NCBI RefSeq assembly: GCF_024362485.1
Contig: NZ_CP101456.1
Location: 3,720,001 to 3,784,000 of the forward strand
Direction of reading: 5' to 3'
Length of the DNA stretch: 64,000 nucleotides
DNA from: Natronobeatus ordinarius
GTDB taxonomy: Archaea; Halobacteriota; Halobacteria; Halobacteriales; Natrialbaceae
Shown here: positions 39,001 through 42,314 of the stretch, piece by piece
Position numbering within the stretch: position 1 is the first letter of the stretch
How the letters are laid out: each line of letters opens with the position of its first letter
Program-made: the position numbers and the translations under genes
Notes under the pieces: generated by a model
Told to the model about the DNA's origin: nothing
Database searches by the model: none
The model's input: the letters and a program-made list of their open reading frames with translations, nothing else

Positions 39001-39792
39001 GGCGTCCTGGCCCAGTACGCGCTCTCCGGGGCCGGGAGCGTTCCCGATCCCGATATCGACCTCGACTCGTTCGACGTCGCCGAACCCGCCGATGCCGGCG
39101 GTGCGTCGACGGCCGGCGAGGTCGGCCCGGTCGTGGCGACGCCGGGCGTGGCGTCCGGAGCGGTCGACGTCGATCCGGACGCGATCGCAGATCGCCTGCC
39201 GGAGGGATTCGAGCCGACCGCTGCGGGACCGGGAACCGATGACGACGAGGACTCGGCGGAGGCGATCGGCGACGTCCTCGAGGACCCCTCCGACGTGGAG
39301 CTGACCGACGGCGGAACCGACGAGGCGATCGAACCTGCCGTCGGCGACGGGCTCGAGTTATCGGACGACGCCAGGGATCGGCTCGAACCCGACACCGGCC
39401 CGGGACTCGATCCGTCGATCGACCCTGGTCCAGACCTCGGCGACCGGACCGCCGACGACGGGACCGACGAATTCGATTCGGCGGCGCCGACGCCGCCGGG
39501 TGATGGCCACGTCGCTTCGACGCTCGCGGTCGACGACGACGGCGAGATCGTCGGTCGGGACACGGTTCGCGTCGCGTCCGTCGACTCGAGCGGATTCGCA
39601 CTCGCCGTTGAGGGTCTGCGCGTCACTGATCACGATCGCTCGGCCGAGGCACGGCCGTACGTCTGGTACCGGGCGTGGCCGACAACGGGGGCGGGAACAC
39701 GAGAATTCGATTCAGCTATGAGCAAAGTATCAAACGAGACCGAGGAGAACCGACCGGAACACCGCGATGCCACCGAAGGGGGTGTGCGATGA
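36049..39792 (+). CDS. Membrane-anchored PKD-repeat protein with large C-terminal repeat region
   Basis: This 1247-aa protein heads the giant-protein operon. A hydrophobic segment (residues ~24-47) is followed by four PKD (Ig-like) domains at ~52-400, of which the second and third are nearly identical at 91-aa period, and a fifth diverged one to ~495. An acidic repeated linker (DDAEDSP-type) leads to a second hydrophobic segment (~570-588) and a Gly/Ser hinge. The C-terminal ~650 residues contain about three copies of a beta-rich module (GFEPDLLVFTA and GFEPGLIEVTT are equivalent strands), the last split by an acidic insertion. If both hydrophobic segments span the membrane, the PKD part is outside and the modules inside. 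The module recalls domains of phage-like structural proteins. It overlaps the next gene by 4 bp. Confidence 0.8.
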   Translation: MTAGPQNEDAPHRTSGWYGHGRATRTAIAAVALIVCVALAVGFVGGVSTQTDDFRWAPTEPTVGEPVTFDVSGYDADGDQYRWWFGDGETAETDGPSVQHTYEEAGTYTVSFATDGARDYTEIVVSEPQSPTAAFDWEPDQPTAGQTVTFDASDSTSPNGEIERYRWLFEGGGYGDWQTESTTTYTFETAGMHVVGLEVEDEADQRDSYATEAFQIEEPQSPTAAFEWTPPQPIAGQAVTFDASDSTSPNGEIERYRWLFEGGGYGDWQTESTTTHTFETAGMHVVGLEVEDEAGQRDSYATEAFQVGEPQSPTAVVDWEPDQPIVGETVSFDASDSTSPNGEIVEYRWDVTGDGSLDDVTTEPTISHTYDEEGGVVIGLEVEDEVGQTADTGAEFSVAPAETPPPEPDEPIARCTIEPTTVGVGETVVVDASASADADAISVDFQGDGQWDVRWADAFVHETSFDEPGTYEPVVRAWGELERHDDVTCPTVTVEDEPADDFPGTGEDTDEPSDDRPGTEEGDDAEDSPVDDAEDSPVDDAEDPPADDAEDPPSDDEAESIVPPPIRDNLGLVAIGLLTLLGLGWAAISGPLGGGGSSGSGGRPTPMPKSPGGGDEPARYETGVVTLPTAGGPVSVTDVGFEPDLLVFTATTADATDGDVASDRTVGWTQGIAVQGEDTLEQHAVTVADDARSTERGTCGTSTGDAFELAVHGDRSLGTLQGSVTAMTDDGFDLTVRTTGSDAAIDGQVRLLYQAFATGTALDVDAGTFLTPTEPGRQHVPLDIDASVVTLATSTAVGGLGETWTTDRSIGVSMGAAASPGAAADGGPTDARAAETDGGLLEQAVWSASVWPGRSNDAAARCGTDGALALCYQDGDRIAGRTTATVTGLGERLELQFDRTYSGPHKIDPTGAHPVQYLAIDAGELTPAVGAVRLPAPDETLAVDCGFEPGLIEVTTSRSAALDHARHTGDVPFGWATGTAIVRDGVLAQYALSGAGSVPDPDIDLDSFDVAEPADAGGASTAGEVGPVVATPGVASGAVDVDPDAIADRLPEGFEPTAAGPGTDDDEDSAEAIGDVLEDPSDVELTDGGTDEAIEPAVGDGLELSDDARDRLEPDTGPGLDPSIDPGPDLGDRTADDGTDEFDSAAPTPPGDGHVASTLAVDDDGEIVGRDTVRVASVDSSGFALAVEGLRVTDHDRSAEARPYVWYRAWPTTGAGTREFDSAMSKVSNETEENRPEHRDATEGGVR
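36464..36990 (+). repeat. Tandem 273-bp PKD-domain duplication
   Basis: The segment starting near 36491 (taaccttcgacgcgagcgac) recurs at 36764 with the same order of bases over ~200 bp and only scattered changes, encoding two almost identical 91-aa PKD domains. A third, more diverged copy follows at ~37030. Confidence 0.85.
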
Positions 39793-42314
39793 CTGGTACG
39801 CTTCCCAAGGCCTACGAGTGTGTTATCGACCGAAACGGGGACTATCGGGGGCACTTGATGGGCTGGAGACAGCGGCAAGCCTCCGAGCCACACAAGATCG
39901 CTCTCTGGACGGTACTTCGGGACGTTGTTTACACGAGCGCTCGAGAGGACTGGGGGCTCACTCATGGACCGGACGATTATCGAACTGAGATGCCCAGTTT
40001 TCCTGATCTCATGGAAGAGCTAGGTGAACCCTCTGGGACATCCGATATTACCGTAGATGAACTCACGGAGTATCTCATGCTCGAAACGGAGTACGAGGGG
40101 CCAAGCGATTTCATCGAGTTCGGCACCTCGCTGAGCGAGGATCGATTACCGCTGATGAACTCCGCCAGTGAACTCGTCGATTCGCTCTCGGGGCCGACGA
40201 CGTACAAAGACGACGAGGTGAACTTTCCCGAGACGTTCGCCGAAGATTCGAACTATACGAGGCGACTCCGGGTTCTGAACCAGGTGCTCGCCGGAATCGG
40301 ATTCAGCAGTCCCGGCGAAGGCTTCGTGGCCGAGCAGCTCGCGAGAGCGTACAGGGGCCACGACCCGGTTTTCGACCCATTCGAGATGCTGAGTCCACAG
40401 CCATACGAACTCGTCGATCCGCCATACAATTTCACACCCGTCACCGAGGCGATGGAGGACCCGACACGCGGCGTCGCGTCGGTATCGGCCGTCTCGCGGG
40501 AGACTCTTGGGCATATTTGCTTTTTCTTCAATCAGATGATGTCCGGTCTCGTTCTACTGATGGAATACGACGAAATGGAGTCCGTCTATGTATTTCAGGG
40601 TCAGGGGCAAGTGTTCAACGACACGGAGATCGCCAACATCGTCAACAACTTTCTATCGCGCTTTTTCGCGCTGTTTTTCGGCCCCGAGCAGGAGTTAGAA
40701 GATGTAGACGGCCTGGGAACGTTCGTCGACTTCGACCTCGCTGCGTATTTCGAAGACGACGGCCTTCGAAAGCAGGACCTCGATGCGGCCTCGGAGGATC
40801 TTCGGGGACTGTTGCGAACCGTCCAACGGATCCGGACCGTGATCACGACGTCGATTCCCGAGGAAATCGAGGTAGACGACGATGGGAACCCGCTCGGAAA
40901 CGCCCACAAGGCTGGCTCGGATGTTGCGTCGTTTGTCGATAAGATCACCACCGGTGGCGGGTTCCACTCACACAGGATAACGAGCGCGATCGTCTACGCG
41001 TTCTCGCTCACGGCGCTTCTCGGGAGCGTGATCGAAACCAACGACAGATTCGAGATCGAACTGCAACAAGAGTGGGACGTCGATGATTGGGTCGACCTCT
41101 GTGATAACATTCAGTCAGTCATCGACTACAGTGCGGTCGATGAGATGAAGGAGCTGATCCAGGAAGGTGCAATCGATTCCTCGGCGGAGTCGAAACCGCT
41201 ATTCGTGGACACCGACACCGATTCTGGTCCCAAATCTTTGAGCGGAGCACAGAAGATTCAAGTCGCGTCGAAATTGGCCGAACCCGTATTTGCGGTCTTC
41301 GACCTCGTGCAAGCCTACTCCGGGATGCAATCTGCGAGTGACACCGGGGAATCCAGTGTCTTCCTCGGTCACGCGCTCGCCGGTGCGGGGGCGATTTCGG
41401 CGATTGCGATCTCGATGTACTCTATCGGCGCGGCGATGGCCTCGTCGGCACCGTTCCTCGTCGCCCTCGCGAGTTCGAACCCGGTTGGCTGGGTGGCCAC
41501 GGCCGGTTTGATCGCCGTGGGACTCGTCTCCTGGGCACTGATTACGTTCACGGGAGACCATCCGATTGAGATCTGGCTGCGAAACACTATCTTTGGCGAT
41601 AATTACGAAGAGGACCGGGTCTACAACGACCCCGAAGAGCCGACGTTTCGCGTCAACGATGCCACGCCGGCCGGAAAGAAACGTGACGAGGAGTATGCGG
41701 GGACGAACAAACCTCGGATGATCTCAGAGTACGTTTCGTTGACCAATCCACTGGGGTTTACGGAAAACGAAGCGACCATCACGCAGATAGACGACCCGAA
41801 AGGATCGTTCAAAGGGACGCTGAAGACCACCATTCCGCTTCCACACGGCCGATGGATGATGCTGTATCCCGTCATTGAGCTGCCGTCGAAGAATTACTTC
41901 GTTGGATACCCGTTAGAACAGGCGGACATCTCGGAAAACTGGATCCACATGATCATCCTCAGAAATCCCGAACACGACATCTCGGAAAACGTTCCCTCCG
42001 GCGACCCGAGCGTCAAGTTGAACTGCCGCTCGCTGACCTACGATATCGATCAGGGTGACGACTGGGGGTGTACCCTGGAGTTCTACGCCAATACGATCGA
42101 CATGACGTTCGGTATCCCGGAAGCGTATTTCGGTCCGAATCGCGACCACTACCTCGAATTGCTCGTCCTCGATCGACAGGTCGAACTCGAGGTTTCCAGA
42201 CTGATAGAGCAAGAGGGCTACGATGAGGCCAACGAGGTTCTCGAGGAGTTCCTCCTGACGAAGTTTCCGTACATTCGTCGTGAGCGCGTCCCCGTGACGT
42301 TAAACGTTGAGTGA
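39789..42314 (+). CDS. Putative membrane-inserting protein with VasX/BTH_I2691-like segment
   Basis: This 841-aa protein has no signal peptide. Residues ~1-520 are mixed helical. A long Gly/Ala-rich hydrophobic block (~525-585: HALAGAGAISAIAISMYSIG, then NPVGWVATAGLIAVGLVSWA) could form two or three membrane helices. It is directly followed by GDHPIEIWLRNTIFG, which strongly recalls the (D)xPLExWLxxCxFG motif after the hydrophobic block of VasX/BTH_I2691-type colicin-like type VI effectors. A beta-rich C-terminus (TLKTTIPLPHGRWMMLYPV) follows. Codons are visibly more AT-rich than in its neighbours. ATG at 39789 overlaps the PKD stop (ATGA); the upstream frame is a shadow. Function is inferred, not shown. 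Confidence 0.7.
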   Translation: MTGTLPKAYECVIDRNGDYRGHLMGWRQRQASEPHKIALWTVLRDVVYTSAREDWGLTHGPDDYRTEMPSFPDLMEELGEPSGTSDITVDELTEYLMLETEYEGPSDFIEFGTSLSEDRLPLMNSASELVDSLSGPTTYKDDEVNFPETFAEDSNYTRRLRVLNQVLAGIGFSSPGEGFVAEQLARAYRGHDPVFDPFEMLSPQPYELVDPPYNFTPVTEAMEDPTRGVASVSAVSRETLGHICFFFNQMMSGLVLLMEYDEMESVYVFQGQGQVFNDTEIANIVNNFLSRFFALFFGPEQELEDVDGLGTFVDFDLAAYFEDDGLRKQDLDAASEDLRGLLRTVQRIRTVITTSIPEEIEVDDDGNPLGNAHKAGSDVASFVDKITTGGGFHSHRITSAIVYAFSLTALLGSVIETNDRFEIELQQEWDVDDWVDLCDNIQSVIDYSAVDEMKELIQEGAIDSSAESKPLFVDTDTDSGPKSLSGAQKIQVASKLAEPVFAVFDLVQAYSGMQSASDTGESSVFLGHALAGAGAISAIAISMYSIGAAMASSAPFLVALASSNPVGWVATAGLIAVGLVSWALITFTGDHPIEIWLRNTIFGDNYEEDRVYNDPEEPTFRVNDATPAGKKRDEEYAGTNKPRMISEYVSLTNPLGFTENEATITQIDDPKGSFKGTLKTTIPLPHGRWMMLYPVIELPSKNYFVGYPLEQADISENWIHMIILRNPEHDISENVPSGDPSVKLNCRSLTYDIDQGDDWGCTLEFYANTIDMTFGIPEAYFGPNRDHYLELLVLDRQVELEVSRLIEQEGYDEANEVLEEFLLTKFPYIRRERVPVTLNVE

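Follow-up and report, generated by a model that had tools for sequence, protein, structure and literature searches.

Among described systems, those closest to the locus analysed here are the VasX/BTH_I2691 pore-forming effectors of the type VI secretion system (T6SS), which include VasX, Tke5, Ptx2 and Bte2 (PMC12909789, PMC12718326). Proteins of this type have been reported from four bacterial phyla only, and VasX genes without Rnf escape invariably carry an adjacent immunity gene (PMC12718326). In Tke5 of Pseudomonas putida, the last predicted transmembrane helix spans residues 781-803 and the immunoglobulin (Ig)-like region residues 864-996 (PMC12909789). Here we analysed a window of 64,000 nucleotides from the haloarchaeon Natronobeatus ordinarius (contig NZ_CP101456.1, positions 3,720,001 to 3,784,000), all of whose features described below lie on the + strand. 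Within it, the P0001 gene (39789..42314; ATG at 39789, stop at 42314) encodes an 841-amino-acid protein with a C-terminal module that, judged from its sequence, is very probably homologous to the module by which VasX/BTH_I2691 effectors insert into membranes. P0001 is the candidate payload of a conserved gene cassette built around a protein of the DUF6603 family.

Similarity of P0001 to VasX-type effectors

Profile searches identified BTH_I2691 (NCBIfam NF041559) as the sole family matched by P0001 (E = 8.3e-6, 24.6 bits), with residues 502-605 (41292..41603) aligning to profile positions 743-837. By itself this single match is thin, because chance matches to the profile, in other parts of it, reach about 3e-5 in other archaeal genomes; it is the matches across the whole protein family that settle the likeness. 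We assembled a set of 13 P0001-type proteins from haloarchaeal genome searches and from GTDB genomes anchored on DUF6603. The other members share 17-22% identity with P0001, and 10 of the 13 match the BTH_I2691 profile and no other family (best E = 1.9e-11); wherever match positions were listed, they lay in the C-terminal stretch of the profile that P0001 itself matches. Among 24 genomes carrying the DUF6603 cassette, the profile was matched in only two, those with a P0001-type gene. Full shuffling of the matching segment eliminated the match in all five replicates, and when the motif described below was kept and its flanks shuffled, two of four segments gave no match and the other two scored 15.1 and 16.7 bits, versus 29.3 bits for the native order. 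Both the motif and the order of the hydrophobic residues therefore contribute to the match.

The first-pass annotation had drawn attention to 41371-41610 (residues 528-607) as a hydrophobic block followed directly by a motif and then by a beta-rich region. The block and the motif were found: three hydrophobic segments (residues 523-542, 545-562 and 564-590; 41355..41558) lead into the sequence GDHPIEIWLRNTIFG (residues 589-603; 41553..41597). The C-terminal region predicted to be beta (about residues 655-840; 41751..42308; strands at 659-839) does not follow directly, being separated from the motif by a linker of about 50 residues; secondary structure prediction, at low confidence, places helix up to about residue 600 and beta from about 655. 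Scanning the pattern Dxx[ILFV][EA]xW[LVIM]xxxx[FY]G against 0.92 million residues translated from open reading frames of the window and of the retrieved loci returned 10 matches (nine distinct genes, one counted twice), all of them in P0001-family genes at the corresponding position, which argues that the motif is not a product of chance.

The comparison with the VasX family, represented on its side by the NCBIfam profile and by PDB chain 9r8g_A, was also run in the reverse direction. When the 13 archaeal modules were made into a profile and searched against PDB, the best natural protein was Tke5 (9r8g_A, residues 733-837, E = 0.0058), two designed helical proteins ranking higher via repeated short matches; the archaeal motif was aligned on Tke5 SPLELWASRSIFG. 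Tke5 was within reach of this focused profile alone: nothing useful came from searching PDB sequences with P0001, P0010 and A1, by phmmer or by full-length profile, or with the Haladaptatus homologue by phmmer. P0001 and Tke5 have in common the order of their parts, namely a helical region, hydrophobic segments, the motif and a C-terminal beta region, Ig-like in Tke5 (PMC12909789) and, by a weak structural match, perhaps in P0001, the corresponding pieces of P0001 being its last hydrophobic segment (564-590), the motif (589-603) and the region at about 655-840. The likeness to VasX and BTH_I2691 proposed in the first-pass annotation was borne out whichever way the search was run and throughout most of the P0001 family, so that the absence of profile similarity named there as refuting it did not occur. 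The resemblance it had seen to the arrangement of colicin-like type VI effectors holds for this order of parts, the C-terminal module alone being common to both.

Several points weigh against reading P0001 as a VasX-like payload: its own E-value is modest, chance archaeal matches come close to it, weak scores persist in two of the four motif-keeping shuffles, and its structure model is poor (predicted local distance difference test, pLDDT, 49.7). With this weak model, residues 654-841 aligned with immunoglobulin domains (Z about 5, root-mean-square deviation (rmsd) 3.5, 113 residues), a weak match though one that the family would lead us to expect, and Foldseek and VIA listed neither Tke5 nor Ptx2, which we do not take as evidence against the likeness. 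The residual scores of 15-17 bits and the low-scoring chance matches in archaea would also fit a convergent likeness, in which a Gly/Ala-rich hydrophobic stretch and a short motif came together with neither common descent nor pore function. We consider such convergence improbable because the profile evidence runs both ways: ten homologues match in spite of their low identity to P0001, full shuffles never match, the reverse search reaches Tke5 at the corresponding position, and in both proteins the beta region comes after the motif.

P0001 is nonetheless not a member of the VasX/BTH_I2691 family as defined, since it scores far under the curated cut-off (150 bits, full-length score), lacks the VasX N-terminal domain and a T6SS, and has no immunity gene in view; it may still work like one. 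No protein in any genome searched exceeded the cut-off. The MIX/VasX N-terminal domain, associated with T6SS loading, was not detected in P0001, which matched no Pfam family at E<=1, and profile positions before 743 had no match in P0001. Like the family, P0001 carries a large helical region with segments predicted to span the membrane (the helical prediction being of low confidence); unlike it, its host is archaeal and its neighbours are the DUF6603 cassette. Reading the operon and the sequence directly downstream revealed no immunity-like small gene, homologous loci not having been searched systematically, and this too counts against a toxin.

Other searches with P0001 yielded little: the single return from PADLOC was LeoBC, at E = 0.004 and confined to the hydrophobic stretch, and neither PHROGs nor the viral structure library gave a match of significance (no match at all in PHROGs). 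Weak matches to the middle of the BTH_I2691 profile (positions 427-542) were also seen in open frames of about 1800-1900 codons from other members of the phylum (L116-L119), and Methanosarcina acetivorans, used as a control, gave a match as well; this is probably noise.

The DUF6603 cassette and its variable slot

The operon consists of six genes running in one direction (36049-62066), of which P0001 is the second; four-base overlaps (ATGA) join most of them, and a gap of three bases precedes P0004. The first, P0003 (36049..39792), found in some haloarchaeal cassettes only, encodes a protein with a signal or transmembrane start, PKD domains, an internal transmembrane segment and C-terminal beta domains. 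P0001 is followed by P0004 (42318..46175), the DUF6603 protein (PF20248, E = 4.9e-130); P0005 (46172..49792), a conserved cassette protein without a known family; P0006 (49789..59763), a giant protein of 3324 amino acids with decapeptide repeats (PF25296) and a weak match to a haloarchaeal BGTF surface domain; and P0007 (59760..62066), the last cassette protein, with a weak lamin-tail-domain match. A second likeness of the P0006 repeats (about residues 713-1070) is to the repeats of DotG/IcmE (NF033900, E = 1e-42, under its cut-off). What the first-pass annotation called a giant-protein operon we read as a cassette with exchangeable cargo, not as a T6SS.

The cassette has the same order on one strand, a variable gene (slot X) followed by DUF6603, P0005-type, giant P0006-type and P0007-type genes, in haloarchaea and in many bacterial loci. 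Its hosts include Bacteroidota, Chlorobiota, Streptomyces and other actinobacteria, Cyanobacteriota, Bacillota, Gemmatimonadota, Planctomycetota, Pseudomonadota and a Myxococcales metagenome-assembled genome (MAG), and it is also found on plasmids. DUF6603 occurs in 17 of 391 Halobacteria genomes, in 11 of which a P0001-type gene lies directly upstream of it; together with two further loci, in Natrinema gelatinilyticum and Haladaptatus halobius, all 13 P0001-type genes occupy this position, and most of the haloarchaeal cassettes found carry one in slot X.

This constant position bears on whether P0001 could instead be the effector of a contractile injection system (CIS) encoded elsewhere in the genome, with the DUF6603 neighbourhood incidental. 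Haloarchaeal CIS with toxin-immunity pairs do exist, as in the T6SS of Halogeometricum borinquense (PMC11566945), and like the present locus they are candidate weapon loci; a sheath gene lies elsewhere in 2 of 13 cassette genomes (the haloarchaea of L110, G285, and L111, G315). The PF04984 sheath match is absent, however, from the other 11, including that of the window, VipB is absent from all 13 searched, and P0001 differs from those systems in its genes and in having no downstream immunity partner in view. Delivery by a CIS is, accordingly, very unlikely.

Beyond the P0001 type, slot X holds subtilase, phospholipase D, M14 carboxypeptidase, M64 peptidase, PhoD phosphatase, Het-C, galactose-oxidase-like and NAL1-like protease genes, as well as several unnamed families. 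A simple hydrophobicity test detected no signal-like N-terminus in 55 of 59 slot candidates, nor in P0004-P0007, even though members of several of the enzyme families concerned are usually secreted. On the DUF6603 tree, archaeal sequences form one supported set (Shimodaira-Hasegawa-like approximate likelihood-ratio support, SH-aLRT, 96). Slot type clusters on this tree, yet 17 changes are needed over ten types (the minimum possible being 9); for the P0001 type, branches with good support require three changes or more. The P0001-type locus L024, for instance, is nested in a set whose other members have a different slot gene of about 420 amino acids. Such exchange recalls polymorphic toxin systems, where the backbone is conserved and the toxic or enzymatic part exchangeable (PMC3482391); there, in contrast, the C-terminal domain of one long protein is exchanged, whereas here it is an entire separate gene, which no immunity gene accompanies in the window. 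One match to pantothenate kinase among the slot-X sequences was set aside as probably a flanking gene, and in a Nitrosomonas MAG (L034, 1176-3557) slot X is a Het-C-domain protein, a family named from fungal heterokaryon incompatibility.

P0001 as a possible payload or anchor

The variability of slot X, its richness in hydrolases, the 17 changes of its type on the DUF6603 tree and the near-general lack of signal-like N-termini count towards reading it as a cargo slot, and we favour, by a modest degree, the view that P0001 is the membrane-inserting payload of a system with exchangeable cargo, the DUF6603 (P0004), P0005, P0006 and P0007 proteins being its carrier. That this payload forms pores appears, by analogy with VasX-type effectors, just slightly less probable. 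In such a mechanism the carrier would export or present P0001, and the same carrier's slot would hold other enzymes in other organisms; if P0001 behaved as Tke5 does, its Ig-like C-terminus would locate a membrane, its hydrophobic helices would then change their fold to enter it, and the target would be depolarised through small pores, as might serve antagonism. The module homology, the order of domains, the conserved cassette and its swapped slot are observed; the cargo role of slot X, the exit of P0001 from the cell, pore formation and antagonism are inferred, as is the physical carrier, and for export and carrier this tells against the proposal.

The main rival gives P0001 the role of a membrane anchor or docking subunit: its module would insert into the membrane of the cell that makes it and hold the giant complex there, forming no toxic pore. 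P0001 has no signal peptide and is stably co-operonic, P0006 and P0007 bear surface-type domains (both weak matches), and the lack of a visible immunity-like gene in the operon or directly downstream would be expected of an anchor. In most other cassettes, however, the slot is occupied by soluble enzymes with no hydrophobic module, and anchoring is therefore not the general job of the slot; transmembrane segments are, moreover, already provided by P0003 in the same operon, and the module falls, by its profile likeness, with a family of pore-forming toxins. On these grounds we regard the anchor as unlikely, if less so than the other alternatives, and retain the payload as the preferred reading.

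More tentatively, the cassette may represent a widespread and undescribed giant-protein delivery system, neither T6SS nor CIS, with interchangeable cargo in archaea and bacteria, a DUF6603 core that might be a lipid-associated, ApoB-like beta belt, and a VasX-type pore-former as its usual haloarchaeal cargo, which would be the first such module reported in archaea or outside type VI secretion. If this were true, a toxin module thought to be bound to type VI secretion would have a non-T6SS home in archaea, and a cluster annotated as nearly all hypothetical would become a candidate for a system that delivers cargo in archaea and in many phyla of bacteria. The swapped slot would offer the first testable handle, each cargo predicting the target of its carrier's action.

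DUF6603 fold and further cassette observations

The DUF6603 protein was modelled with fair confidence (pLDDT 76.5) as a long antiparallel beta sheet, in which it resembles the lipid belt of ApoB100 (Foldseek E = 1.7e-5) and large membrane beta barrels. VIA aligned it with a porin (Z 14.2, rmsd 11.0), FimD (Z 12.2, rmsd 6.4, 262 residues aligned) and the type 9 translocon (Z 11.7, rmsd 5.0, 222 aligned), but TM-scores to belt and barrels were very low and rmsd high. DUF6603 differs further from the barrels in having no signal-like N-terminus, and many of its hosts (haloarchaea, Streptomyces and Neobacillus among them) lack an outer membrane, which makes a barrel improbable in these organisms. 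A belt associated with lipid is possible, if speculative. Among the open papers searched, none mentions the family. Neither DUF6603 nor the cassette had a match in the phage set searched, and a phage origin of DUF6603 is unsupported.

In gut and rumen Bacteroidales (L070, 5510-12166; L071, 6482-12718; L082, 6023-12787), DUF6603 proteins reach about 2100-2250 amino acids, with N-terminal extensions of about 1000 residues. We read these as long amphipathic helices and on that account dropped the idea that the gut Bacteroidales have cargo fused to DUF6603; the slot-X set that includes these proteins gives apolipoprotein-type Pfam matches.

Searches of plasmids by tblastn returned nothing with P0001 and haloarchaeal plasmids only with the L030 module. 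Two cassettes, or two DUF6603 genes, occur per record in L069, in L082, where the tail of one cassette lies directly before another, and on a Natrinema gelatinilyticum plasmid, whose two copies (L029/L033) have different slot-X genes. On a Streptomyces plasmid (L106) and a Rhizobium plasmid (L107), tyrosine recombinase genes lie on both sides of the cassette, which suggests mobility, and the Rhizobium cassette is near a CVNH-domain gene.
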